From assembly GCF_900187265.1 (NCBI RefSeq), contig NZ_LT906450.1, positions 1,913,444 to 1,977,443 of the forward strand: a stretch of DNA of 64,000 nucleotides. The letters run 5' to 3'. The stretch's first letter is position 1; each line of letters begins with the position of its first letter. The notes under the pieces were generated by a model. That model had not been told where the DNA came from. It was given only the letters and a program-made list of their open reading frames with translations, and did not search any database. The stretch is from Rhodococcus rhodochrous. GTDB taxonomy: Bacteria > Actinomycetota > Actinomycetes > Mycobacteriales > Mycobacteriaceae. A program made the position numbers and the translations under genes. This document shows positions 1 to 21,933 of the stretch, in pieces.

Positions 1-652
1 CCGGCACGGTGTACCCCTCGGGCGGGTTGCGGAAGAGTGCCGCACCGGCCAGCGACATCACGAGGTAGGCGATACCCAAGGGCAGGAAGGCGCTCGTGGG
101 GTCGTCCGGATTCCGGTCGATGAGCCACTGCGCGACCGGCGAGGTGAGCACGGCGCCGAACCCGAAACCGCCCACGGCGAGTCCGGTGATGAGACCGGTC
201 TTGTCGGGGAACCACTTCTGCAGCATGGCGATCGGGACGATGTACGCGAAGCCCAGCCCGAAGCCACTGATGATGCCGTATCCGAGGATGAGCAGCCAGT
301 AGTCGTCGGCTCCGTCGGTGAACGAGGCGAGGAGGATGCCGAGCGCGTAGATGATGCCGCCGATCAACGCGACGACCCGGGGACCTTTCAGGTCCTGCAG
401 TCGGCCACCGAGATAGGTGCCGATGAAGATCATGCCGATGGTGACGGTGAACGGCAGTGAGGCCCGGACCGTGCTCAGTTGCCAGGAGTCGGCGCTCTCG
501 AGGGCTCCGCCGAAGACCGACCACGCATAGACCGCGCCGATCGAGAACTGCAGCAACAGACCCCCGGCGACGAGGAGCCAGCGGAAGCTGCCCGGAGGCT
601 GTGCCGTCGGGGCGTCGCCGTGTGGTTCGCGCGTGGGCTTGCCGGAGTCCAT
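1..652 (-). CDS. OFA-family MFS transporter (oxalate/formate type), N-terminal half
   Basis: Membrane transporter of the major facilitator superfamily, truncated by the window edge: 217 residues are visible, about half of a usual 420-450 aa protein. The start ATG at 650-652 follows an AAGGAG ribosome site. About six hydrophobic segments are visible, and the last visible residues read NPPEGYTVPG, a loop typical of the OFA (oxalate/formate antiporter) branch. It lies 33 bases after the NrfD subunit gene on the same strand, so it is probably the last gene of the formate dehydrogenase operon. Family membership is fairly clear; formate or oxalate as substrate is an inference from the family name and the operon. 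Confidence 0.75.
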   Translation of the reverse strand, partial: MDSGKPTREPHGDAPTAQPPGSFRWLLVAGGLLLQFSIGAVYAWSVFGGALESADSWQLSTVRASLPFTVTIGMIFIGTYLGGRLQDLKGPRVVALIGGIIYALGILLASFTDGADDYWLLILGYGIISGFGLGFAYIVPIAMLQKWFPDKTGLITGLAVGGFGFGAVLTSPVAQWLIDRNPDDPTSAFLPLGIAYLVMSLAGAALFRNPPEGYTVP

Positions 653-685: not shown

Positions 686-1705
686 TCAGCTGCGGTAACG
701 AACGGGTTCCCCGCGATCGACTCGTTCACGCTGGGGAACGACGGTGTACTTGGGATCCTTCGCCGACGCGATGCCGGCCTCGTAGACTCCGACTCGCGTA
801 CACAGCGAACCGACCATGAGTGCGGCACCGGACACTGCCGACACCACCCGATTGCGGCGACCGACGAGTGCGCCGAGCGCGCCGGCCACCGTCAATGCCT
901 TACTGGCCTTCATCAGTCGCCCGGGGCGGCCCTGGTGGAGCGTCTCGGCCGACAGGCCCATCGACTTCTCCATCTGCTGCTCGGTCGCGAGTTCGACGAG
1001 CGCGCCGCCGACGGCGAAGGCGCGCGCCGGCCCGGCCTCGGCGACCGGTGCGCCCAACAGTCCGAGACCTCCCGATGCGGCGGCCGCGGACCCGCAGAAC
1101 ACGAAGGGAATCTCCTTGTAGGCGGAGTGCCATGCCGGAGTTGCGGTGTCGGACAACAGGACCCCGGTGTAGGCGGCGACCGGCGGTGCCGTCAGCGCAC
1201 CCACGATCCCGGCGGGCCGTCCGAGGGCGAGCAGCAGGCGCACCGGTCCGCGCTTCCATCGGGCGGGGAGCATCTCGGCAATCTCCGCGACCGCAGCGAG
1301 GCCCGCGAACGGACCGTGCAGCGACAGGATCCACGTACCGACCGACATCGGGGAGGTCGGTTTGGCGACCCGCAGCATGTTGAGGAATCGGCTCGGTTTG
1401 CCGAGATCGTGGACCAGCGCACCGACACTGACGAGCAGCGATGTGAGCGAGCCGAATCGGGCGACGCGACGGAGGGCGGGCCGCCCCGTGAGATCGGCAC
1501 CCGCAGCGAGCAGCGAACTGCCCGCGGCCACGCCACCGGTGAACAGATAGATCGCGATGTCGTGTTCCCACGGAGCCGGTTTCACGATCTGGCGCCCGTA
1601 ATAGGATTCGAAGTCGGCCTCCGGCACCATCACCCGGTCGCCGCCGCGACCACCTCCGGACCGGCGGGAGTTGCCCGGGCTGCCGCCGTGCTGCACCTGT
1701 GTCAT
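686..1705 (-). CDS. nrfD: NrfD/PsrC-type membrane anchor subunit of formate dehydrogenase
   Basis: Polytopic membrane protein of 339 aa that should anchor the formate dehydrogenase and pass electrons to the quinone pool. After a Gly/Arg-rich N-terminus it reads YYGRQIVKPAPWEHDIAIYL and then several hydrophobic helices, with LGKPSRFLNMLRV and SPMSVGTWIL segments characteristic of NrfD/PsrC proteins. Its ATG overlaps the stop of the upstream iron-sulfur subunit gene (TGATG), indicating translational coupling. The anchor is of the NrfD type rather than the cytochrome b (FdnI) type used by E. coli FDH-N; no haem-binding histidine pattern was recognised. Confidence 0.85.
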   Translation of the reverse strand: MTQVQHGGSPGNSRRSGGGRGGDRVMVPEADFESYYGRQIVKPAPWEHDIAIYLFTGGVAAGSSLLAAGADLTGRPALRRVARFGSLTSLLVSVGALVHDLGKPSRFLNMLRVAKPTSPMSVGTWILSLHGPFAGLAAVAEIAEMLPARWKRGPVRLLLALGRPAGIVGALTAPPVAAYTGVLLSDTATPAWHSAYKEIPFVFCGSAAAASGGLGLLGAPVAEAGPARAFAVGGALVELATEQQMEKSMGLSAETLHQGRPGRLMKASKALTVAGALGALVGRRNRVVSAVSGAALMVGSLCTRVGVYEAGIASAKDPKYTVVPQRERVDRGEPVRYRS

Positions 1706-2616
1706 CAGCGCCTCCTCAGGAACGACGCGGCGGCGCCCGCCAGCATCGCGACCGCTGCCACGGCGGCGCGGGTCCACATCTCCGGCAGATCCTTGGTCGT
1801 CACCACCGGATCCGGCGGCAAGCCGTAGACCTCCGGTTCGTCGAGGAGCAGGAAGAAGGCGCCGGTCCCGCCGACCCCGTCCTCGGGATCGTTGCCGTAG
1901 AGCCGTGCCTCGCTCACGCCGCGCTCGTGCAGGGCTGCCAGTCGTTCCTCGGCGCGGGCGCGCAGTTCCTCGACGTCGCCGTACTGGATCGACTCCGTGG
2001 GGCACGCCTGCGCGCAGGACGGGGTCTGGCCGTCGGTGAGCCGGTCGTAGCAGAGCGTGCACTTCTGGGCGATACCGACCTTCGGGTCGCCCTCCGGACC
2101 CTTGCGGCGGTCGATGACGCCGTACGGGCACGCGGCCACGCAGTATCCGCAGCCGTTGCAGATGTCGTCCTGCACGACCACCGTGCCGAACTCGCTGCGG
2201 AACAGCGACCCGGTCGGGCACACGTCGAGGCACGCCGCGTGGGTGCAGTGCTTGCACACGTCCGAGGACATCAACCAGCGGAAGTCCGGCTTCTCCTCCT
2301 CCGGAAGTTCCGTCGGGGTCGCGCCGACGGTCGGCATCCCCAGCGAGACCGGGGGTTTCGACTCCGCGGGGCGCTCGATGAAGGCGACGTGCCGCCACTG
2401 GTTGGCGTTGAGCGAATGACTGTTGTCGTACGAGGTGCCGAGCATCGCGAAGAGGTTCTCGGGGACGTCGTTCCACTCCTTGCAGGCCACCTCGCAGGCC
2501 TTGCATCCGATGCACACGCTGGTGTCGGTGAAGAAGCCCTTGCGAGCCGGCGGATCCTCGTACCCGGCATCGGGTGCCGGGTCGATCGGTCCGAAGAAGC
2601 TGTTGGGGCCGGTCAC
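1705..2616 (-). CDS. fdhB: formate dehydrogenase iron-sulfur (beta) subunit
   Basis: Electron-transfer subunit of 303 aa with four ferredoxin-type cysteine groups, in order CIGCKACEVACK, CKHCTHAACLDVCP, CNGCGYCVAACP and CTLC...CAQACP, enough for four [4Fe-4S] clusters. A hydrophobic helix near the C-terminus, TRAAVAAVAMLAGAAASFL, should tether it to the membrane as in FdnH-like subunits. The GTG start overlaps the stop of fdhA (GTGA) and its stop overlaps the start of the NrfD subunit gene, so the three subunits are translated as one coupled unit. It carries electrons from the molybdenum subunit to the membrane anchor. Confidence 0.92.
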   Translation of the reverse strand: MTGPNSFFGPIDPAPDAGYEDPPARKGFFTDTSVCIGCKACEVACKEWNDVPENLFAMLGTSYDNSHSLNANQWRHVAFIERPAESKPPVSLGMPTVGATPTELPEEEKPDFRWLMSSDVCKHCTHAACLDVCPTGSLFRSEFGTVVVQDDICNGCGYCVAACPYGVIDRRKGPEGDPKVGIAQKCTLCYDRLTDGQTPSCAQACPTESIQYGDVEELRARAEERLAALHERGVSEARLYGNDPEDGVGGTGAFFLLLDEPEVYGLPPDPVVTTKDLPEMWTRAAVAAVAMLAGAAASFLRRR

Positions 2617-5600
2617 TCGTCCTCCTCCGGGGGATGTCGGTCGTCCGAAGCCTCCGGGGCACGTGGGTCGTCCGAGGCCGTATCGCCGTCCGGGACCGTC
2701 ACGATGGGTGGGTACACGTGATCGGTTACCCCGGCCCGCCGCGCATATCCCTCGACGTACTCCCGCAGTGCCGCTCCGGACGGTCGGCGTCCGGCCCGGA
2801 CGTCGCACGTACCGACCTTGGTCTCCTGGATGAGCACGTTGGGGTCCAACGTGATTCCGAACAGATCGTTGGTCGAGTCGCCGGTCACCATGCCGCCGCT
2901 GCCCCAGTGATAGGGCATCCACACCTGGTGGACGGTCCGTCCCTCCACCTTCAGCGGGCGCAACCGCTCGGTCACCAGCACCCGGCCCTCGATCGCGGAG
3001 CGGGCGGTGACGACGTGGCACCAACCCATGTGCTCGAGTCCGCGTTCGGCCGCCAGGGCGGGGGAGACCTCCACGAACATCTCCGGTTGCAGTTCGGCGA
3101 GATGTTCGAGATAGCGGCTCATGCCGCCGGCGGTGTGGTGCTCGGTGAGACGGCTCGTCGTGAACACGAAGGGGAACACGTCGATGTGGTCCTCCGGCGG
3201 CGCCGGATTCATCGGGTTGTCGTCGCGGCGGTACTCCTTGCGCGTCGGGTTGGCCTGCTGCGCGTAGAGCGGGTTGCGGAAGGGCGACTCCACCGGTTCG
3301 TAGTGCGTCGGCATCGGACCGTCGACGAGCCCCTGCGGCACGTAGAGGGCACCCTTGCCGTCGCCCTGCATGATGAACGGGTCGATCCCCTCGAGCGCCT
3401 CGACACCGTCGGCGCCTTCGGGGGAGCGATAGCTCGGCGGCTTCGTCTTCTCGAAGTCCGGAACGTCCGCACCCGTCCACTGCTGCGCGTCGTCGTCCCA
3501 CCACACGTAGGCCTTGCGTTCGCTCCACGGCCGGCCCTCGGGGTCGGCGGAGGCCCGGTTGTAGAGAATGCGGCGGTTCATCGGCCACGCCCAGCCCCAC
3601 TCGGGAGCCACGAACGACTGCTCGTGCCGGGACTTGCGCCGGTTGGCCTGGTTGACGCCGTCGGCGTAGACCCCGGTGTAGATCCAGCAGCCACCGAGGG
3701 TGGAGCCGTCGTTCTTCATCTCGGTGAACGACGAGAGCGGCCGGCGGGTTGCGACGTCGTAGCCGTTGATCTCCATGAGCACCGCGTCGGCACTCGGCTC
3801 GTCGTACTCGCCGTGCACGGGGTAGTCCCACGCCAGGTCGAGCAGCGGACGGTCGCGCTCGTCGGTCGACTCGGCCAGACGCTCCCGCATCATGCGGCCG
3901 AGGTGGTAGAAGAACCACAGTTCCGAGCGACAGTCCTCCGGCGGCTCGACGGCCTTCTCCCGCCACTGCAGCATCCGCTGGGTCTGCGTGAAGGTGCCTT
4001 CCTTCTCGGCGTAGGAGGCCGCCGGGAAGAGGAACACCTCGGTGGCGCACTCCTCGGTCACGATCTCGCCGGTCTCGATCTCCGGTGAGTCCTTCCAGAA
4101 GTTGGCGCTCTCGATCTCGAACAGGTCGCGCACCACGAGCCAGTCGAGGTTCGCCATCCCGAGCCGCTGGGCGCGCCCGTGGGCGGAGCCGACGGCCGGG
4201 TTCTGCCCGAGGAGGAAGTAGCCCTTGACCTTTCCGTCGATCATGTCGAGCACCGAACGGTAGGTGCCGTGGTCGCCGGTGATCTTCGGCATGTAGTCGA
4301 AGCAGTAGTCGTTGTCGGCGGTCGCTGCGTCGCCCCAGTAGGCCTTGAGCAGGTTCACGGCGTAGGCGTCGGCCTTCGACCAGAAACCCTTGCTTCCGGG
4401 GTTGCGGACACTGTCGACCCAGTCCGTGAACGAGTGGTGCTTGTTCGCGTCGGGCATCGGCAGGTAGCCGGGCAACAGGTTGAACAGCGTCGGGATGTCG
4501 GTCGAGCCCTGGATACTGGCGTGACCGCGCAGCGCCATGATGCCTCCGCCGGGGCGGCCCATGTTGCCGAGCAGCAGCTGCAGGATCGCGCCGGTACGGA
4601 TGTACTGCACACCGACACTGTGCTGGGTCCAGCCCACGCTGTAGACGAGCGCCGTCGTCCGCTCCCGGCCGGAGTTCTCGGTCCACGCGCGGCAGACGTC
4701 GAGGAAGTCCTCCTGCGAGACGCCGCACACCTGCTCGACCATCTCGGGGGTGTAGCGGGCGAAGTGCCGCTTGAGCACCTGGTAGACGCACCGCGGGTGC
4801 TGCAGCGTCTCGTCGCGCCTCGGGTGGCTCGCCGTCTGCATGCCGTGCGCCTCGTTCTGCAGGCCCGCGGCCGTCTCCCGATGCTCGGCGTGCTCTTCGG
4901 AGCCGTTGGCCTGCGACTTGTGCAGGTCGCCGGATTCGTCCTCCACGTCGTACTGCCAGCTCGTCGGATCGTAGGTCCGCTTCTCGGGGTCGAAGCCCGA
5001 GAAGAGCCCGTCGAGATCGTCGGTGTCCTCGAACTTGTCGCTGACGAGCACCGCGGCGTTCGTGTAGTTGACGACGTACTCGCGGAAGTCCAGCTCGTTG
5101 CTCAGGATGTAGTTGACGATGCCGCCGAGGAAGGCGATGTCGCTGCCGACCCGGATCGGGACGTGCTTGTCCGCCACCGCGCTGGTACGGGTGAAGCGCG
5201 GGTCGATGTGGATGACGCGGGCACCACGCTTCTGGGCCTCCACGACCCACTGGAAGCCCACCGGGTGGGCCTCGGCCATGTTGGAACCCTGGATGATGAT
5301 GCAGTCAGCGTTCGCCAGGTCGGCTGTGTAGCCGGTGGCACCGCCGCGCCCGAAGCTGGTCCCCAGACCGGGGACGGTGGCGGAGTGTCATATGCGGGCC
5401 TGATTCTCGATCTGGACCGCCCCCATCGCTGTGAACAGCTTCTTGATGAGGTAGTTCTCCTCGTTGTCCAGCGTGGCACCGCCGAGACTGGCGATACCCA
5501 TCGTGCGCCGGACACGGTGGCCCTTGTCGTCGAATTCCTGCCAGGTCTCGCGGCGGGTCTTCAGCACGCGGTCGACGACCATCTCCATGGCCGTGTCGAG

Positions 5601-5957
5601 ATCGAGGTCTTCCCATTCGGTGCCGTAGGGCCGGCGGTAGCGGACCCGGGTCTCGCGTAGCTCGCTGGTGACGAGGTTCTTGCTCGCCGAACCCTTGGGA
5701 CACAGGCGCCCGCGGTTCACCGGACTGTCGGGATCGCCCTCGATCTGGACGACCTTGTCGTCCTTGACGAAGATCTTCTGTCCGCATCCGACAGCGCAGT
5801 AGGGGCACACGCTGCGGGCGACACGATCGGCGGTGGAGGTGCGCGGTTCGATCTCCTCGGTACGACGGGACCGTGCGGCCTTGCCGCGTCCGAGCAGATC
5901 CTTCCCGAGGAACTGGCGCAGGACGGGCCAGGGGAGGGACGTGTCCTTCTCCGCCAT
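2613..5957 (-). CDS. fdhA: selenocysteine-containing formate dehydrogenase, catalytic (alpha) subunit
   Basis: Molybdopterin-dependent formate dehydrogenase that oxidises formate to CO2; 1114 aa if the TGA at 5388-5390 is read as selenocysteine (residue 190). The context is QARI-Sec-HSATVPGLGTSFGRG, matching the active-site Sec-His of E. coli FdnG/FdhF. Homology runs without a break on both sides of the TGA and frame is kept. The N-terminal [4Fe-4S] site is Cys51, 54, 58 and 86 (CPYCAVGC...CPKG). The start ATG has an AAAGGAG site six bases upstream. No twin-arginine signal peptide is seen at the N-terminus, unlike E. coli FdnG, so the catalytic side may face the cytoplasm. Ordinary gene callers would split this gene in two (about 2613-5279 and 5388-5957). 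Confidence 0.95.
5359..5390 (-). promoter_or_regulatory. bacterial SECIS element directing selenocysteine insertion in fdhA
   Basis: Reading the minus strand, the TGA at 5390-5388 is followed 18 bases later by an apical loop GGTCT closed by a perfect 6-bp stem GTCCCC/GGGGAC (5370-5375 with 5359-5364). The GGTC loop and its distance from the TGA correspond to the E. coli fdhF SECIS hairpin, which SelB binds. The hairpin lies within the coding sequence (Pro-Gly-Leu-Gly codons), as is usual in bacteria. Confidence 0.88.
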
Positions 5958-6060
5958 CTGTGCTCCTTTCCTGCGCTCTCGTTCCGAAGCTACCGTCTAC
6001 CCCCGCTTCGTGCCGGTTAATCCGGTGCAGGTGTGTCGGCATGTCCGACGATGAACGGGG

Positions 6061-7083
6061 TCAGCGCACCCGGATCGCGTGTTCGCCCGCGGGAACCACC
6101 TCGCCGACGACCGGATGACCGGGCAGCTCACCGACGACCAGCAGACCGCCGGACGTCTGGGCGTCGGCGAGCAGGAGCAGTTCGTCGTCGTCCACCTCGG
6201 AGTCGACCGCGTCGCGTACCCAGTCGAGATTGCGCCGGCTCCCGCCGGGGACGAATCCCTCCGCGAGCGACTCCCGCGCCCCGGCGACGTACGGCACGGC
6301 CGCGGAGTCGATCACGGCGGTCGTGCCGCTGGCCCGCATCATCTTCATCAGGTGCCCGAGCAGACCGAAACCGGTGACGTCGGTTGCGGCGCGGACACCG
6401 GCCTCGTGCGCGAGCTGCGCCGCCTCGCGGTTGAGTGTCGTCATCACCGCGACCGCTTCCTCGAAACGCTCGCCGGTGGCCTTGTGACGGTTGTTCAGGA
6501 TGCCGAGACCGAGCGGCTTGGTGAGGGTGAGCGGCAGGCCGGGCGTGGCAGCGTCGTTGCGCAGCAGGCGATCCGGATCGCCCAGACCGGTGACCGCCAG
6601 CCCGTACTTCGGCTCGCGGTCGTCGATGCTGTGCCCGCCGGCGAGATGGGCACCCGCCTCGGCGCACGCGTCGGCACCGCCGCGCATGACCTCGGCGGCG
6701 AGTTCGAACGGGATGAGCTCGCGCGGCCAGCCCAGGAGGTTGACCGCGATGATCGGCGTGCCACCCATCGCGTAGACGTCGGACATGGCGTTGGTGGCGG
6801 CGATCCGTCCCCAGTCGTAGGCGTCGTCGACGACCGGCGTGAAGAAGTCGGCCGTCACGATGACGGCCCGGCCGCTCCCGTCGGGCGCCGGTTCGATCCG
6901 GACCGCGGCACCGTCGTCGCCGTTCTCCACACCCACCAACAGTTCGCCGGCGGCCCGTCCACCCTGCAGACCGCCGAGCACCCGTTCGAGTTCACCCGGC
7001 GGAACCTTGCATGCGCAGCCGCCGCCGGCGGCGTACTGGGTGAGTCGGATGGCGCCCTCGGGAAGGTCGACGTGTGCGGTCAT
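6061..7083 (-). CDS. selD: selenide, water dikinase (selenophosphate synthetase)
   Basis: Makes selenophosphate from selenide and ATP, the selenium donor for SelA. It has 340 aa from the ATG at 7081-7083; an in-frame ATG four codons upstream is the alternative. The catalytic motif is GGGCACK, with Cys23 and Lys26 in the places of E. coli Cys17 and Lys20, so this SelD is the cysteine form and not itself a selenoprotein. Downstream are PurM/AIR-synthase-type segments such as DFFTPVVDD and GGHSIDD. It is on the same strand as fdhA, 103 bases upstream of it, and diverges from tRNA-Sec/selA/selB. A TATGTT box seven bases before the ATG suggests a leaderless transcript. Confidence 0.95.
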   Translation of the reverse strand: MTAHVDLPEGAIRLTQYAAGGGCACKVPPGELERVLGGLQGGRAAGELLVGVENGDDGAAVRIEPAPDGSGRAVIVTADFFTPVVDDAYDWGRIAATNAMSDVYAMGGTPIIAVNLLGWPRELIPFELAAEVMRGGADACAEAGAHLAGGHSIDDREPKYGLAVTGLGDPDRLLRNDAATPGLPLTLTKPLGLGILNNRHKATGERFEEAVAVMTTLNREAAQLAHEAGVRAATDVTGFGLLGHLMKMMRASGTTAVIDSAAVPYVAGARESLAEGFVPGGSRRNLDWVRDAVDSEVDDDELLLLADAQTSGGLLVVGELPGHPVVGEVVPAGEHAIRVR

Positions 7084-7090
7084 GAACCCA

Positions 7091-7096
7091 AACATA
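7091..7096 (-). promoter_or_regulatory. putative -10 box of a leaderless selD transcript
   Basis: TATGTT on the minus strand lies seven bases before the selD ATG at 7083, the spacing expected if transcription starts at the A of the start codon. No convincing -35 box was recognised. It supports 7083 over the longer start. Confidence 0.35.
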
Positions 7097-7129
7097 CGGG
7101 CGAGTCGTAACCGAGGGCCCGACTTCGGT

Positions 7130-7135
7130 TAGGGT
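7130..7135 (+). promoter_or_regulatory. putative -10 box for tRNA-Sec (selC-selA-selB unit)
   Basis: TAGGGT ends six bases before the first base of the tRNA-Sec acceptor stem (7142), matching the TANNNT -10 pattern common in actinobacteria. Only about 60 bases separate the divergent selD start and the tRNA. Confidence 0.35.
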
Positions 7136-7141
7136 GAGCGC

Positions 7142-7236
7142 GGAGGTGGTTCTCGTCTGGTGACGGTCGCGGTCTTCAAAACCGTTGTGGCCCAGTATCT
7201 GGGCTGGGCGGGTTCGATTCCCGTCCGCCTCCGCCA
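7142..7236 (+). tRNA. selC: tRNA-Sec (anticodon TCA)
   Basis: A 92-nt body plus encoded CCA (7234-7236). The acceptor arm has 8 bp (GGAGGTGG with CCGCCTCC, one G-U) and the T stem 5 bp, the extended geometry special to bacterial tRNA-Sec. The anticodon loop CTTCAAA carries TCA at 7176-7178. A long variable arm is formed by CCCAG/CTGGG, and the discriminator base is G. It reads the TGA of fdhA and lies just upstream of selA. Confidence 0.97.
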
Positions 7237-7268
7237 AATGTTTTCGTCGACCGTGGGATGAGGAGCGC

Positions 7269-8573
7269 GTGCCGGATCCGAGACGGGACGTTCCCCGCAC
7301 CGACCAGGTCCTGGCCGATCCGCGCCTGCGCGAGGCCGTCGACCGGCTCGGCGCCCGACTGGTCAAGCAGACCGTCGTCGCGGCCCAGCAACGGTGCCGC
7401 GACGGCGAGATCGGGCCCGACGCCGTCGCCGACGTCGCGGTCGCGTCGCTGCCGCAGCAGGCGACCACCCTGCGTCGCGTCGTCAACGCGACCGGCGTGG
7501 TGGTGCACACCAATCTCGGTCGCGCCCCGCTGTCCCGAGCGGCGGTCGAGGCGGTGTCCACCGCGGCGGGTGCCACCGACGTCGAACTCGACCTGGCCAC
7601 CGGCCGGCGCGGACGGCGAGGACGCGGCGCCCTCGAGGCGCTCGCCGAACAGGTACCCGACGCCGGCGGCGTCCACGTCGTCAACAACGGTGCCGCGGCT
7701 CTCGCCCTGGTCACCCGGGTGCTCACACGCGGTGGTCGCTCGATCGTGATCGCACGGGGCGAACTGGTCGAGATCGGCGACGGCTTCCGGATCCCGGAAC
7801 TGCTGGAATCCGTGGGCGCGACGCTGCGTGAGGTCGGCACCACCAACCGCGTGCGCCTGAGCGACTATGCCGCGGCCGTCGACGACGACACCGCCTTCGT
7901 CCTCAAGGTGCATCCCTCGAACTTCACCGTCAGCGGCTTCACGTCGTCGGTGTCGGTCCGGGAACTCACCGGACTCGGACCGCCCGTCGTGGTCGACATC
8001 GGATCGGGTCTGCTCGCCCCGCATCCGCGGCTGCCGAACGAACCCGACGCCACCACCGCGCTGCGTGCCGGCGCCGACCTGGTGACCGCCTCGGGCGACA
8101 AGCTCCTCGGCGGTCCGCAGGCCGGCCTGCTGCTCGGGCGGGCCGAACTCGTGGAACGCCTGCGGCGCGACCCGTTCGCGCGGGCGCTGCGCGTCGACAA
8201 GCTCACCCTGGCCGCTCTCGAAGCGACCCTGACGGGACCGATGCCACCCGTGGCGTCGGCGCTGGCCTCCCGCCCGGAGGATCTCCGCGCCCGCGCACAG
8301 GCGATCTGCGTGGCGTTGCCCTCGGAGTGCCACCCCGAGGTGGTCGACTCCGACGGCGTCGTCGGGGGCGGCGGCGCCCCGGACGTCGTCCTGCCGAGCG
8401 TCGCGATCGCCCTGCCCGAACATCTCGCACTCCCGTTGCGGCTCGGTGAGCACCCCGTGGTCGGCCGCGTCGAACGCGGCCGGTTGCTGCTCGACCTGCT
8501 CGCGGTCGACCCCGCCGAGGACGGCGAGCTGATCGACGCCGTGACGCGCGTGGCTACTCGCGAAGGATCCTGA
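7269..8573 (+). CDS. selA: L-seryl-tRNA(Sec) selenium transferase
   Basis: Converts seryl-tRNA(Sec) to selenocysteinyl-tRNA(Sec) using selenophosphate; a PLP enzyme. It has 434 aa from the GTG at 7269, chosen for the GAGGAG just upstream and the N-terminus PDPRRDVPRTDQVL, which matches SelA proteins. Core segments include VVNATGVVVHTNLGRAPLS and VVDIGSGLL, and the PLP lysine is Lys278 in SGDKLLGGPQAG. The gene starts 32 bases after tRNA-Sec, and its stop overlaps the selB start (TGATG). Confidence 0.96.
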   Translation: MPDPRRDVPRTDQVLADPRLREAVDRLGARLVKQTVVAAQQRCRDGEIGPDAVADVAVASLPQQATTLRRVVNATGVVVHTNLGRAPLSRAAVEAVSTAAGATDVELDLATGRRGRRGRGALEALAEQVPDAGGVHVVNNGAAALALVTRVLTRGGRSIVIARGELVEIGDGFRIPELLESVGATLREVGTTNRVRLSDYAAAVDDDTAFVLKVHPSNFTVSGFTSSVSVRELTGLGPPVVVDIGSGLLAPHPRLPNEPDATTALRAGADLVTASGDKLLGGPQAGLLLGRAELVERLRRDPFARALRVDKLTLAALEATLTGPMPPVASALASRPEDLRARAQAICVALPSECHPEVVDSDGVVGGGGAPDVVLPSVAIALPEHLALPLRLGEHPVVGRVERGRLLLDLLAVDPAEDGELIDAVTRVATREGS

Positions 8574-10315
8574 TGTACGTCGTCGCGACCGCCGGTCACG
8601 TCGATCACGGGAAGTCGACGCTGGTCGAGGCGCTCACCGGTGCGAATCCGGATCGGCTCGCCGAGGAACGGCGACGAGGACTGACCATCGAGCTCGGCTA
8701 CTGCTGGACGTCCTGGCCCGAGGTGGGGGAGGTCGCCTTCGTCGACGTCCCCGGACACGAGCGATTCCTGACGACGATGCTCTCCGGAGTGGGATCGGTC
8801 CCGGCCGCGCTGTTCGTGGTGGCCGCCGACGATCCGTGGATGCCGCAGGCGGCCGAACACCTCGCAGCGCTCGACGCGCTCGGCGTGCGTCACGCGGTCG
8901 TCGCCGTCACCCGCGCCGATCTCGCCGATCCGGGACCCGCGGCCGCGCGGGCCGCGGCGGAGGTCGCCCGTACGAGTCTGGCGGGGGCACCCGTCGTCGC
9001 CGTGAGCGGGCGCACCGGGATGGGCCTCGACGATCTCCGGGGCGCCCTGACGACGATGGTCGCCTCGCTCCCGGACCCCGATCCGCAGGCCGACGTCCGG
9101 CTCTGGGTGGACCGCCGGTTCACCGTGCGTGGATCCGGAACCGTCGTCACCGGAACGCTTCCCGCAGGCACGGTGCGCGTCGGGGACACCCTCGCGCTCG
9201 GGGACACACCGCTGCGCGTCCGCAGCGTGCAGGCACTCGGTCGCGACCGGACCGCGGTGAGCGGCGTGGCCAGGGTCGCCCTCAATCTCACCGGGCGGGT
9301 CGACGATCTGGGACGGGGCAGTGTGCTCGTCACGCCCGGCGCGTGGCACCACACCTCCGTCGTCGACGTGCGGATCAGCGGCGACGACCGGCCGCCCGTC
9401 GCTCCGGTGCTGCACATCGGAGCCGCGGACGTCGGTGTCCGGTGCCGTCCGCTGGCAGACGGTCTCGTCCGGCTCACCCTCGACCGCCCGCTGCCCCTGC
9501 GGATCGGCGACCGCGCGTTGCTGCGCGACCCGGGCCACCGGATGATCTGGCGGGCCGACGTTCTCGACCCCGATCCACCCCGATTCCGGCGTCGCGGCGC
9601 GGCGGCACGCCGTGCGCTGCAACTGGCGGGGGCCGACGGGACGCCGCGCCTGGCCGACGAGCTCGCCCGCCGCGGACTCCTGCACCGGCAACGGTTGCGA
9701 CAGTTGGGCATCCCACTCGAACGGGGAGAGCACCTGACGGTCGGGCCGTGGCTCGTCGCATCCGGTCTCGCGAAGGCCGTCGCCGACCGGCTGCCCACAC
9801 TCGTGCAGGCCCATGCCCGCGCCCATCCACTGGATCCGGCGGCGCCGTTGACGGTGCTGGCGTCGCAGCTGCGTCTTCCCACGCCCGACCTCGTCCGGGC
9901 GCTGGTGCGACCTCCGCTCGAAGTGGTCGGGGGACGGGTGATCGCTCCCGGCGCCGACGGTCTACCGCCGAAGATCCGCAAGGCCGTCGAGCAGGTGCGC
10001 CGCGATCTGTCGGCCGCCCCGTTCGCGGCCCCGACCGCCGATCGCCTACGTGAGCTCGGCCTCGACGACCGGGCCCTCGGCGCGGCCGAACGCAGCGGAC
10101 GGTTGTGGCGGGCGGGTCCGGGCATCGTCCTGCTCCCCGACGCCGCCGACACGGCCGTGGAGCTGCTGGGCGAATTGGACCAGCCCTTCACGACCAGTGC
10201 CGCGCGCGAGCGGCTGGGAACGACACGGCGGGTGGTCCTGCCGCTGCTCGACCGGCTCGACAAGGCGGGCCGCACACGCCGGCTCCCCGACGACCGCCGC
10301 GAGATCGTCCGCTAG
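8573..10315 (+). CDS. selB: selenocysteine-specific translation elongation factor
   Basis: GTPase of 580 aa that carries Sec-tRNA(Sec) to the ribosome at UGA codons marked by a SECIS hairpin. GTP-binding motifs are AGHVDHGKS (residues 7-15) and DVPGHERF (58-65), followed by AVTRAD-like guanine recognition. The middle has EF-Tu-like beta-barrel domains (DRRFTVRGSGTVVTGTL). The C-terminal 200 residues are Leu/Arg-rich and fit the winged-helix domains that bind SECIS RNA. It is translationally coupled to selA. Confidence 0.96.
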   Translation: MYVVATAGHVDHGKSTLVEALTGANPDRLAEERRRGLTIELGYCWTSWPEVGEVAFVDVPGHERFLTTMLSGVGSVPAALFVVAADDPWMPQAAEHLAALDALGVRHAVVAVTRADLADPGPAAARAAAEVARTSLAGAPVVAVSGRTGMGLDDLRGALTTMVASLPDPDPQADVRLWVDRRFTVRGSGTVVTGTLPAGTVRVGDTLALGDTPLRVRSVQALGRDRTAVSGVARVALNLTGRVDDLGRGSVLVTPGAWHHTSVVDVRISGDDRPPVAPVLHIGAADVGVRCRPLADGLVRLTLDRPLPLRIGDRALLRDPGHRMIWRADVLDPDPPRFRRRGAAARRALQLAGADGTPRLADELARRGLLHRQRLRQLGIPLERGEHLTVGPWLVASGLAKAVADRLPTLVQAHARAHPLDPAAPLTVLASQLRLPTPDLVRALVRPPLEVVGGRVIAPGADGLPPKIRKAVEQVRRDLSAAPFAAPTADRLRELGLDDRALGAAERSGRLWRAGPGIVLLPDAADTAVELLGELDQPFTTSAARERLGTTRRVVLPLLDRLDKAGRTRRLPDDRREIVR

Positions 10316-10360: not shown

Positions 10361-10399
10361 CGAAGTGCGGGTACCGAACTCGTCGGTACCCGCACTTCG
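10361..10399. terminator. strong hairpin between convergent selB and gdhA
   Basis: A perfect 17-bp inverted repeat (10361-10377 with 10383-10399) with a five-base loop ACTCG. There is no T tract on either side, which is common for actinobacterial terminators. Its place between two converging genes suggests termination in both directions. Confidence 0.75.
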
Positions 10400-10415
10400 C
10401 ATGAAGAATCGGTCG

Positions 10416-11793
<1,378 letters not shown>

Positions 11794-12957: not shown

Positions 12958-13031
12958 GGGCGCCGAAGGGGGAAGTGCGGACGGATCGGCGGGGGAAACC
13001 CGATGCGACCGCCCGAGGGTGGGAGTTGTTC

Positions 13032-13916
13032 ATGCAGGTTCCTGGCCCGTTCGAATACGCGCGCGCAACCGGAGTGGAGCACGCCGTCGAGTTGCTCGAC
13101 CGGCACGGAGAAGATGCCCGCGTCGTCGCCGGCGGACACAGTCTTCTCCCGATGATGAAGCTGCGGCTCGCGAATCCGGAATTCCTGATCGACATCAACG
13201 ACCTCGGGGACGAACTCGACCACATCACGGTCGAACCCGAGGTCGTTCGCATCGGTGCCCTCGTGCGCCACCGCCGGCTGCTCGAATCCGACGAACTCGC
13301 CGAGATCTTCCCGATCTTCCGGGACGCGGAGAAGGTCATCGCCGATCCGGTCGTCCGCAACCGCGGGACGCTCGGAGGGTCGATCTGCCAGGCCGACCCC
13401 GCCGAGGACCTGTCCACCGTGTGCGCGGTGCTCGGCGCGACGTGCGTCGTCCGCGGTCCGACAGGGGTGCGCGAGCTCCCCTTCGACGAGTTCCATCTCG
13501 GTGCCTACGAGACGGTGGTCGCCCCGAACGAGTTGCTCGTCGAGGTGCGACTGCCGCGGAAGGGCACCTCCTCCAGCGCGTACGAGAAGGTCGAGCGTCG
13601 CGCGGGGGACTGGGCGGTGGCCGCGGCGGGCGCCGCGCTGTGGATGTCGGAGGACGGACGCATCACCGACGCGCGTGTCGGGCTGACGGCCGTGCGCCCC
13701 GACGAGACGGCGTTGTCGAGGGTGCCCGAACTGTTGCGCGGCTCCCCACCTTCGGAGGACCTGTTCCGTGAGGCGGGCGCCGCGGCCGCGACGGCATGCG
13801 ATCCGGAGACCGATCAGCGCGGCACCGCCGCCTACAAACGTCACCTCGCATCGGAGCTGACGGTGCGGGCCCTGCGCCGATCCGCCGAACGTCTCGGCGT
13901 CACCGAAAGGGTGTGA
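13032..13916 (+). CDS. coxM: carbon monoxide dehydrogenase medium (FAD) subunit
   Basis: FAD-binding subunit, 294 aa, that takes electrons from the iron-sulfur subunit of the molybdenum hydroxylase. FAD motifs typical of CoxM are AGGHSLLPMMKLR (about residues 34-46) and RNRGTLGGSICQADPAEDL (about 110-128). The ATG at 13032 is preceded by GGGAG. The order coxM-coxS-coxL is that of form I CO dehydrogenase operons; the next gene starts four bases after the stop. Confidence 0.93.
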   Translation: MQVPGPFEYARATGVEHAVELLDRHGEDARVVAGGHSLLPMMKLRLANPEFLIDINDLGDELDHITVEPEVVRIGALVRHRRLLESDELAEIFPIFRDAEKVIADPVVRNRGTLGGSICQADPAEDLSTVCAVLGATCVVRGPTGVRELPFDEFHLGAYETVVAPNELLVEVRLPRKGTSSSAYEKVERRAGDWAVAAAGAALWMSEDGRITDARVGLTAVRPDETALSRVPELLRGSPPSEDLFREAGAAAATACDPETDQRGTAAYKRHLASELTVRALRRSAERLGVTERV

Positions 13917-13920
13917 ACCG

Positions 13921-14405
13921 ATGCAGATCTCGATGACGGTCAACGGCGAGAGCGTCACCGCCGACGTCGAGCCCCGGACACTGCTCGTGCACTTCCTGCG
14001 CGACCACCTCGGTCTGACCGGAACACACTGGGGATGCGACACGAGCAACTGCGGAACGTGTGTCGTCGCCGTGGACGGCGAACCGGTGAAGTCGTGCACC
14101 ACGCTGGCGGTCATGGCTGTCGGCCACGAGGTGCTCACCGTCGAGGGACTCGAACGCGACGGTGTCCTCGACCCCGTGCAGGAAGGCTTCATGCGCTGCC
14201 ACGGGCTGCAATGCGGCTTCTGCACGCCGGGAATGATGATCACCGCCCGGGCCCTGCTCGATCGCGATCCGGATCCCGACGACGCGACGATCCGCGAGGC
14301 GATCTCCGGGCAGATCTGTCGCTGCACCGGCTACACCACCATCGTCCGGTCGGTCCGGTGGGCCGCCGAACACTCCTCGAACGTGCAACCCACGGAGGTG
14401 TCGTG

Positions 14406-14406
<1 letters not shown>
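13921..14406 (+). CDS. coxS: carbon monoxide dehydrogenase small (2Fe-2S) subunit
   Basis: Electron-transfer subunit of 161 aa carrying two [2Fe-2S] clusters. The plant-ferredoxin-type cluster uses Cys39, 44, 47 and 59 (GCDTSNCGTC...SC). The second uses Cys98, 101, 133 and 135 (QCGFCTPGM...ICRCTGY). This is the standard small subunit of xanthine-oxidase-family molybdenum hydroxylases. Its TGA overlaps the coxL ATG. Confidence 0.95.
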
Positions 14407-16799
<2,393 letters not shown>

Positions 16800-19899: not shown

Positions 19900-21933
19900 A
19901 TGGCAACATCCGAGCTCGCGTCTCCCGCGCAGCCTCCGGCGCCCGCCCCTACGAGGGGAAACCCGCCGGCACTGCTGATCCTTTTCGGCCTCCTCGCCGC
20001 CGTCGTCGCGGCGTTCGCGGTCGGGCTGTCCGCTGCGCAGGCGCTGGTGTTGCTCGGCATCCCCGATCCCGGTCCGCTCACCACCTACGGTCTGCCCGCG
20101 GTCCGCGCGATCTCCGAGATCGCGACCGTCATCACGATCGGATCGCTGTTCTTCGCCGCCTTCCTCGTGCCCCCGCAACAAGGGGGTGTGCTCGACGTCG
20201 GCGGCTATCGCGCCGTCCGGACCGCGGGCGTCGCGGCGACGGTGTGGGCGATCACCGCGGCGCTGATGGTGCCGCTGACCCTGTCAGACACCTCCGGCAG
20301 CCCGCTGGGCGAGGCCATCCGTCCGCAGAACCTCTTCTCGGCGCTCGGCCAGGTGGAAGTGTCGCTGGCCTGGGCCTGGACGACGGTGCTCGCCCTGATC
20401 ACCGCCCTGCTGATCCGGCTCACGGTGCGCTGGTCGTGGACGCCCTATCTGCTGCTGCTGTCGGTCGTCGCACTCATGCCGATCGCCCTGACCGGGCACT
20501 CCTCGTCGGGTGGTTCGCACGACATGGCGACCAACAGCCTCGTGCTGCACCTCGTCGCGGCGTCCGTCTGGGCGGGCGGGCTGTTCGCCCTGCTCGCGCA
20601 CTCCATGCGAGGCGGCGAGCACACCGACATCGCGGCCCGGCGGTTCTCCTTCGTTGCCGGACTCGCCTTCGTCGTCATGGCCGTCAGCGGCGTCATCAAC
20701 GCCGCGGTCCGCATGTCGTTCGACGACCTGACCACGACCACTTACGGCAGGCTGTTGCTCGCGAAGATCGTCGCGCTGGTCCTGCTCGGCATCTTCGGCT
20801 GGGCACAACGCCGCCGGGCACTGCCGGCACTCGAAGCCGACCCCACCAGCCGGTCCGCGCTCGTGCGGTTCACCCTCGTCGAGGCGTTCGTCCTCGCCGC
20901 GACGATCGGTCTGGCCGTGGGACTCGGTCGCACGCCCCCGCCGCCGCCGGCTACGGTGCCGACGATCCAGGAGGTCGAGCTCGGCTACCAGCTCGACGTA
21001 CCGCCGTCGTTCGTGAGCCTGTTCTTCGGCCAATGGCGCTTCGACTTGATCTTCGGCACGGCTGCTCTCGTGCTCGCCGCCGCCTACGCGGTCGGACTGT
21101 GGACGCTGCGCAAGCGCGGCGACTCGTGGCCGATCGGCCGGTCGATCGCCTGGTTCTCGGGCTGCTTCGTGCTGTTCGTCGCCACCAGTTCGGGCGTCGG
21201 GATGTACTCGCCGGCGATGTTCAGCGTGCACATGGGCGCGCACATGGCCCTGTCGATGCTCGCCCCGGTGCTCCTCGCACTCGGCGGGGCGATGACCCTC
21301 GCCCTGCGTGCGTTCAAGCCGGCCGGACGCAACGCCCCTCCCGGACCGCGCGAATGGATCCTCGAGTTCCTGCACAGCCCGCCGTCGCGGTTCTTCACGC
21401 ATCCGATCGTCGCGTCGGTCATGTTCGTGGGCGGCTTCTACGCCCTGTATCTCGGCGGGATCTTCACCGCGTTCATCGACAGCCACACCGCGCACGTCCT
21501 GATGAACCTGCACTTCCTGCTGAGCGGCTACCTCTTCTACTGGGTGGTGATCGGCGTCGACCCGTCGCCGCGCGACCTGCAGCCCGTGACGAAGCTGGCC
21601 ATGGTCTTCGGCTCGCTCCCGTTCCACGCCTTCTTCGGCGTGACTCTCATGAGCATGGGCACGGTGATGGCCGAGAGCTACTACCGCGGCCTGGCACTGC
21701 CGTGGAACTACGACCTGTTCTCCGATCAGAAGGTCGGCGGCAGCATCGCGTGGTCGGCCGGCGAGATCCCGCTCGTGCTCGTGATGCTCGCCCTGCTCGT
21801 CCAGTGGTCGCGCAGCGATCGGCGCACGGCGCGACGTGTCGACCGGGCCGCCGAACGTGACGACGACGCCGATCTCGCGGCACACAACGCGATGTTCGCC
21901 GAGCTGGCGCGCCGCGACCGCGAGGGTCGCTGA
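19900..21933 (+). CDS. ctaG: fused CopD-like copper resistance/import and CtaG cytochrome oxidase assembly protein
   Basis: Polytopic membrane protein of 677 aa with two modules. Residues about 20-330 form a CopD-like domain, with helices around RAISEIATVITIGSLFFAAF and TGHSSSGGSHDMATNSLVLH, which supply possible His/Met copper ligands. Residues about 360-640 form a CtaG/caa3 assembly domain: FSVHMGAHMALSMLAPVLLA, NLHFLLSGYLFYWVVIG and MSMGTVMAESYYRG. CtaG delivers copper to the CuB site of cytochrome oxidase. This fused architecture is known in mycobacteria and relatives. It follows coxE by two bases, so a link to copper supply for CO dehydrogenase is possible (inference). Confidence 0.88.
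   Translation: MATSELASPAQPPAPAPTRGNPPALLILFGLLAAVVAAFAVGLSAAQALVLLGIPDPGPLTTYGLPAVRAISEIATVITIGSLFFAAFLVPPQQGGVLDVGGYRAVRTAGVAATVWAITAALMVPLTLSDTSGSPLGEAIRPQNLFSALGQVEVSLAWAWTTVLALITALLIRLTVRWSWTPYLLLLSVVALMPIALTGHSSSGGSHDMATNSLVLHLVAASVWAGGLFALLAHSMRGGEHTDIAARRFSFVAGLAFVVMAVSGVINAAVRMSFDDLTTTTYGRLLLAKIVALVLLGIFGWAQRRRALPALEADPTSRSALVRFTLVEAFVLAATIGLAVGLGRTPPPPPATVPTIQEVELGYQLDVPPSFVSLFFGQWRFDLIFGTAALVLAAAYAVGLWTLRKRGDSWPIGRSIAWFSGCFVLFVATSSGVGMYSPAMFSVHMGAHMALSMLAPVLLALGGAMTLALRAFKPAGRNAPPGPREWILEFLHSPPSRFFTHPIVASVMFVGGFYALYLGGIFTAFIDSHTAHVLMNLHFLLSGYLFYWVVIGVDPSPRDLQPVTKLAMVFGSLPFHAFFGVTLMSMGTVMAESYYRGLALPWNYDLFSDQKVGGSIAWSAGEIPLVLVMLALLVQWSRSDRRTARRVDRAAERDDDADLAAHNAMFAELARRDREGR

Follow-up and report, generated by a model that had tools for sequence, protein, structure and literature searches.

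The question raised by this locus is how a chromosome of the genus Rhodococcus came to hold, side by side, all the genes dedicated to selenocysteine (Sec) insertion and the one gene that visibly calls for them. The locus lies in a window (the whole stretch of DNA that was analysed, 64,000 nucleotides, positions 1,913,444 to 1,977,443 of a one-contig Rhodococcus rhodochrous genome of 5.27 Mb) in which selD, the tRNA-Sec gene, selA and selB flank the formate dehydrogenase gene fdhA, which carries an in-frame UGA codon. We are highly confident that this block is a self-contained Sec-formate dehydrogenase (FDH) module, which was acquired as one unit and is now found at three chromosomal places in the genus. 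From the sequence comparisons described below, it appears to have entered Rhodococcus as a single unit from a Nocardioides-like actinobacterium, a direction and a mode that we infer from trees and gene layout.

From left to right, the block holds a major facilitator superfamily (MFS) transporter gene, fdhC, fdhB, fdhA and selD on the minus strand, followed by the tRNA-Sec gene, selA and selB on the plus strand, with gdhA as the next gene; fdhA, selD, tRNA-Sec, selA and selB are all intact in the window. The gene identities were computed here, and they exceed curated cut-offs for all block genes other than fdhB and fdhC, which were identified by weaker or domain matches. The fdhA gene (2613..5957, minus strand) reads through a single internal TGA at 5388..5390, which would be read as Sec at residue 190 of a product of 1114 amino acids. 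This product matches at full length (residues 9-1073) the NCBIfam model for the actinobacterial Sec formate dehydrogenase, NF041513, with 1957.3 bits in comparison to a cut-off of 1400. A hairpin with a 6-bp stem and a GGUCU loop starting 18 nt past the UGA (5359..5375, minus strand) was identified by comparative alignment as the Sec insertion sequence (SECIS) element. The selenophosphate synthetase gene selD, of the Cys form (6061..7083, minus strand), matches TIGR00476 with 381.7 bits (cut-off 125), and the tRNA-Sec gene (selC; 7142..7232, plus strand), which has a UCA anticodon, was recognized by ARAGORN and by Rfam RF01852 with 74.6 bits (cut-off 47). On the same strand, the selenocysteine synthase gene selA (7269..8573) matches TIGR00474 with 406.8 bits (cut-off 267.9), and the gene of the Sec-specific elongation factor, selB (8573..10315), matches TIGR00475 with 259.4 bits (cut-off 242.25) as well as PF09107 SelB-wing_3. 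All four genes of the Sec-decoding trait, selA, selB, selC and selD, are present over cut-off. An earlier note on this DNA had described a Sec module around one visible selenoprotein, and that description holds. The same note had expected standard gene callers to split fdhA and to miss its protein; the first part is correct, since plain open reading frame (ORF) calling breaks the gene into 5388-5957 and 2613-5279, and the second is doubtful, since the curated NCBI model spans the whole protein.

To describe the distribution of the block in the genus, 18 genomes were used, 17 of them at least 90% complete, with thresholds of E 1e-100 for fdhA and 1e-9 for tRNA-Sec. The results showed an all-or-none pattern, in which the same nine genomes hold both fdhA(UGA) and tRNA-Sec, adjacent to each other, and the remaining nine hold neither at these thresholds. 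Six carriers have the block at site 1, between gdhA and either luxR or lfC. In G007, a complete genome of one contig, this site is empty and luxR directly adjoins gdhA; the alignment breaks at 9,328 and restarts at 20,442 of the joined coordinate, and 11,113 bp are thus absent in comparison to the window's genome. In ten other genomes lfC adjoins gdhA with no block there, and three of these carry the block elsewhere, at site 2, which is common to G004 and G014, or at site 3, in G011. For G006, only 1,952 bases were available beside gdhA, where the contig ends. The similarity between G011 and G014 is limited to 9.6 kb, from fdhC to selB, and the flanks are unrelated; the 20-kb stretches that surround the block at sites 2 and 3 showed no copy of the transporter. 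The all-or-none pattern, the empty site and the three places bear out the portable unit that the earlier note had seen in this block.

How the block came to three places was considered in two ways. We give roughly an even chance to the reading that the 9.6-kb block from fdhC to selB is a minimal cassette, with the transporter as an optional part, which after one transfer from Nocardioides spread between Rhodococcus lineages. Under the same reading, it would have come to rest at three sites that have nothing in common, with no mobile element that could be recognised, and each host, in which no other selenium use was found, would have gained a working UGA-to-Sec code for one enzyme. The other history, in which the module entered the ancestor of the genus once and was then lost in some lineages and relocated twice, rather than being transferred repeatedly between lineages, is a possibility to be taken seriously, although we hold it short of an even chance. 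It agrees with the observation that the Rhodococcus modules form one clade in both module trees described below, and with the broad compatibility between the module tree and the gdhA+lfC tree, a compatibility that arises because the deep splits are poorly resolved. On the gdhA+lfC tree, however, the presence pattern needs four changes, of which starred branches force three, and the three sites fall in different lineages. In addition, the ratio of module to core fourfold divergence, calculated with two core genes only and with fourfold sites near saturation, was 0.73 to 0.83 for pairs with G011 in comparison to 1.13 for the pair G000-G015 within site 1. The other ratios overlap, with 0.73 to 1.33 for pairs with G014 or G004 and 0.78 to 2.33 for within-site pairs, which weakens this argument. 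Taken together, the divergence ratios lean towards a later spread between Rhodococcus lineages without amounting to proof.

The dedication of the sel genes to fdhA was evaluated over the whole genome. The tRNA-Sec gene, selA, selD and selB were each found only once over cut-off, with no second sel gene of any of these kinds. A second SelB candidate (L124, 201 bits to TIGR00475) was rejected as EF-Tu by sequence, and no tRNA-selenouridine synthase was found over cut-off in the genome (20.1 bits in comparison to 219.75). The pattern TGA-N18-GGTCT occurs at 30 genome sites, and only at fdhA does the stem reach 5 bp or more, with 6 bp there; the frame at this site stays open for 202 codons upstream and for more than 500 downstream. 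The other 29 matches failed as SECIS candidates, including L144, whose 4-bp stem is accompanied by open frames of only 20 and 34 codons. The reversed pattern, used as a control, gave 45 matches, and pattern matches by themselves therefore mean nothing. A covariance model of the SECIS element gave an E value of 4e-13 for fdhA and 0.23 for the next best match, with 150 of 9,837 first-look candidates scored, and FdhA, used as a query with an E limit of 1e-5, matched two other molybdo-oxidoreductase-like genes, both without internal stops. Within this search, which covered SECIS elements of the fdhA type, fdhA is the only candidate selenoprotein gene found. We regard it as improbable that the sel genes serve several selenoproteins here and merely adjoin fdhA. 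Bacterial SECIS elements vary, and this, together with the single type sought and the share of candidates scored, speaks for such a role, while the single pattern match that passed, the weak next best model match and the uninterrupted molybdo-oxidoreductase-like genes speak against it, as does the finding that the genus genomes without fdhA(UGA) are also without sel genes, as judged by tRNA-Sec.

The origin of the module was analysed with two trees. The FdhA tree was built with 86 rows, L093, L097 and L098 being left out as repeats of L010, L017 and L033 (L122 and L017, and L120 and L033, are identical over 20 kb; L093 is presumed to repeat L010 from the equal length of their contigs), and the tree of combined SelD, SelA and SelB (SelDAB) was built with 53 of these 86 loci, those with all five genes. 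In the FdhA tree Rhodococcus is nested within a clade of seven Nocardioides, distant from the mycobacteria, and the independent SelDAB tree places it likewise. In approximately unbiased (AU) tests on thinned sets of 34 rows for SelDAB and 43 rows for FdhA, a forced clade of Rhodococcus and mycobacteria was rejected with p of 9.6e-6 and 3.4e-50, respectively. A constraint that united the seven Nocardioides and left Rhodococcus outside them was rejected by FdhA with p of 9.4e-5. Vertical inheritance, in which a module already present in a shared ancestor of Rhodococcus and the mycobacteria would have disappeared from half of the genus, might be suggested by the Mycobacterium and Mycolicibacterium loci that also hold a Sec-fdhA with sel genes. 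It is very improbable in view of the AU tests on both data sets, of the gene order, which is of a Rhodococcus type in one group and of a mycobacterial type in the other, and of the identity of Rhodococcus FdhA, which among the 80 relatives retained from 286 is 80-85% to the seven Nocardioides loci in comparison to 67-70% to mycobacterial loci. The modules of these Nocardioides (L011-L016, L084), which are the likely donor side, have the same order, selB-selA-tRNA-Sec divergent from selD-fdhA-fdhB-fdhC, and the transporter comes next in six of the seven.

The conservation of the UGA codon and of the SECIS hairpin was computed with 89 fdhA rows, consisting of the 80 relatives retained from 286 and the nine genus genomes, with three genus rows repeating named loci; the peptide patterns used in the search for relatives exclude the Sec site. 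TGA stands at the Sec site in every one of the 89 rows, where the frame is open to either side of it, and no row has a Cys codon there. In formate dehydrogenase 1h0h, of which the structure is solved, the position that aligns with residue 190 of FdhA is X, a modified residue. For G003, G013 and G014, another Sec codon in frame was considered and rejected, as these genes have only one internal TGA and the other TGA is the protein end. GGTCT starts 18 nt after the TGA in 88 of the 89 rows, and the Gly codon of the loop is GGT in 88 rows and AGT in one, in comparison to GGT at 881 of 8,985 Gly codons (9.8%) elsewhere in the same genes. For the hairpin GUCCCC-GGUCU-GGGGAC, all six pairs are intact in 35 of 35 distinct rows, in which one pair shows five standard types (CG 16, UA 12, UG 5, GC 1, GU 1). 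The covariation score of the stem was 0.266 in comparison to 0.160 for shuffled alignments, with none of 500 shuffles as high, and RNAalifold without guidance chose the same hairpin. The element is thus a conserved hairpin just 3' of the UGA with G-U in its loop, as in a bacterial SECIS element, and its loop and its distance from the UGA resemble those of the E. coli fdhF element. That the TGA is a plain nonsense mutation in a pseudogene, as the two pieces from plain ORF calling might suggest, has a negligible chance in view of the 89 rows with open flanking frames, the constraint on the SECIS element and the intact sel genes alongside.

Several results weigh against the acquisition of a Sec module as set out above. 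The SelDAB data permit Rhodococcus as a sister to the seven nearest Nocardioides with p of 0.20, while FdhA rejects Rhodococcus outside Nocardioides; the direction of transfer is therefore well supported by FdhA and only favoured by SelDAB, and the two trees also differ on which Nocardioides is nearest. At sites 2 and 3, nine flank ORFs, of which eight gave Pfam matches, include no integrase or transposase, nor do the three left-flank ORFs examined at site 1, and no att-like terminal direct repeats framing the block were found, so that no vehicle was recognized in the flanks examined. For the SECIS element, the covariation comes from one pair only, and four of the six pairs are invariant. Folding of the window's SECIS region as a single sequence prefers another hairpin, which is not significant (z-score -0.93, with 32 of 200 shuffles folding as well), and did not recover the canonical one; this competing fold lacks conservation, since only 74.9% of cells are paired and no covariation was seen, and was rejected as lacking comparative support. 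Finally, the transporter misses the cut-off of the oxalate/formate family TIGR00890, with 228.5 bits in comparison to 374.85.

The module acquired in this way could function as follows. The supply of Sec by SelD, SelA, tRNA-Sec and SelB is an established pathway, in which SelD would form selenophosphate, SelA would turn seryl-tRNA-Sec into Sec-tRNA-Sec, and SelB would bring the latter to the ribosome stalled at codon 190 of the fdhA mRNA, the UGA of which would be flagged as Sec by the GGUCU-loop hairpin. FdhA is a predicted formate dehydrogenase with a molybdenum or tungsten bis-molybdopterin guanine dinucleotide cofactor. Judging from the subunit types, FdhA, the 4Fe-4S subunit FdhB and the NrfD-like FdhC would pass electrons from formate to the membrane quinone pool. 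The E. coli-type FDH-N has a twin-arginine translocation (Tat) signal on its alpha subunit and a cytochrome b gamma subunit; here, in contrast, the region around the FdhA start, read from the match start, showed neither an RRxF/L Tat motif nor a strongly hydrophobic segment in any of the 89 rows, and the gamma subunit is of the NrfD type by Pfam. The active site is therefore probably cytoplasmic, which would fit well with an importer in the operon. The monocarboxylate-type transporter may import formate or a related acid. Its best family is NF049980 SfMCT, an L-lactate carrier (422.1 bits, cut-off 320), with a further match to PF07690. Besides TIGR00890, it also misses the cut-off of TIGR04259 (148.1 bits in comparison to 335), so that a formate transporter by family membership was rejected and no single substrate was assigned.

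The novelty of the finding is limited. The earlier note had placed it in the compact layout and the co-operonic transporter, and neither can be upheld, since among the 80 related loci retained from 286 the order selB-selA-tRNA-Sec divergent from selD-fdhA was found in 23 and the transporter directly after fdhC in 14. A mycobacterial layout variant was found in 20 of these loci, the full gene set in another order in 7, and 30 were partial or cut by contig ends or flank. Clusters of this kind have also been described. In Corynebacterium aurimucosum ATCC 700975, likewise a Mycobacteriales genome with a UGA in its FDH gene, fdnG-fdxH is described as clustered with selD, selA, selB and selC, and a second, non-Sec FDH gene is also described (PMC2830990); the likeness drawn here is one of gene content. 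The FDH1 cluster of Actinomycetospora chiangmaiensis DSM 45062 resembles the present block in a membrane-bound FDH with Sec alpha, beta and gamma subunits grouped with a permease, selA and selB, and differs in that selD is listed apart from the cluster and that there are three Sec-FDH systems in comparison to one here; in that organism formate removal was selenite-dependent, and selenite abolished formate accumulation (PMC7176365). Horizontal gene transfer of selA-selB-selC with fdhA has been reported in Pseudomonadales (PMC1794560), and recent transfers of the Sec trait include two cases in which Arthrobacter received it from other Actinobacteria, with both selD and fdhA nearby (PMC5029168). 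In both papers, the whole decoding trait moves with fdhA as the sole selenoprotein, clustered or in one operon, as here. The present case is set apart by its recipient, Rhodococcus, by the inclusion of selD in the transferred set, and by the occurrence of an empty site and of three places of insertion within a single genus. Layout, transporter and module transfer being already known, what is added is the donor clade, the empty site and the three places. Among the open-access papers listed for this Rhodococcus case, none bears a title on such a module, and none was listed for Nocardioides, by which absence from print is not claimed. The module offers an optional extension of the genetic code in an unusually clean natural form, for which the donor clade, the empty site in a complete genome, the three places and the all-or-none pattern all occur within one genus, and members of this genus can be cultured. 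With such a system it could be examined directly which components a bacterium needs to acquire before it can read UGA as Sec, and what retains such a trait for a single enzyme.

Two of the related loci deserve mention. L055 (Amycolatopsis vancoresmycina NRRL B-24208) has an fdhA with UGA and SECIS loop; strain DSM 44592 of this species is listed with an orphan SelD and no known selenium trait (PMC5029168). In L031 (Mumia quercus) the tRNA-Sec gene (8773-8867) is on the selD strand, unlike in the 23 loci of the Rhodococcus type.

The unit is longer than the span 2613..10315 first recognized. The fdhB gene (1705..2616, minus strand; 303 amino acids), which overlaps the end of fdhA, encodes a subunit with multiple 4Fe-4S clusters by its Fer4 domains and one C-terminal hydrophobic helix by hydropathy, and its top NCBIfam match, TIGR01582 FDH-beta, is under cut-off (180.4 bits in comparison to 334.7). 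The fdhC gene (686..1705, minus strand; 339 amino acids) encodes an NrfD-type membrane subunit (PF03916 NrfD, 72.6 bits, cut-off 25.8). The 5' part of the transporter gene occupies 1..652 (minus strand) and continues past the left edge of the window, the whole gene being L009:9348-10652 with 434 amino acids. The ORF of selD is readable from 7095, and spacer comparison places its start most likely at 7083. The listed ORF of selA (7185-8573) begins within the tRNA-Sec gene, and the sequence at the start points to the GTG at 7269 as the probable start codon. In the spacer between selD and tRNA-Sec (7083-7142), one TANNNT box per direction, read by eye, is kept in all nine Rhodococcus modules; selD may be translated from a leaderless mRNA.

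On the right, the block is bordered by the housekeeping gene gdhA (10444..11793, minus strand; NF006929, 773.1 bits), which is present in 18 of 18 genus genomes. The nearest named relative of the window's genome is Rhodococcus gordoniae, with 95% identity in FdhA and 99% in the gdhA product. Between the stops of selB and gdhA lies a perfect hairpin (10363..10397), read from the sequence by eye without a terminator-program score, which is a probable two-way terminator. Beside gdhA (10414-10466), a segment of about 25 bases from its end occurs as a tandem repeat in only three of the six site-1 genomes, G000, G005 and G008; this repeat was rejected as an att site, being a local duplication at one border. 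G015 lacks the genes that separate lfC from the block (lfD, a flavin monooxygenase-like gene and luxR; L009 4135-9325), and luxR alone was matched in G005, which gives the left border at gdhA a history of its own. The sole fdhD (FDH sulfurtransferase) over cut-off, with 177.6 bits, is at genome positions 1977419-1978177, at and beyond the right end of the window and about 57 kb from the module, and this maturation factor is therefore outside the block. About 3 kb past gdhA there is an aerobic CO dehydrogenase-type cluster (13000-16799), whose large subunit matches TIGR02416 with 1435.9 bits (cut-off 991.15), a second one-carbon oxidation system near the FDH module.

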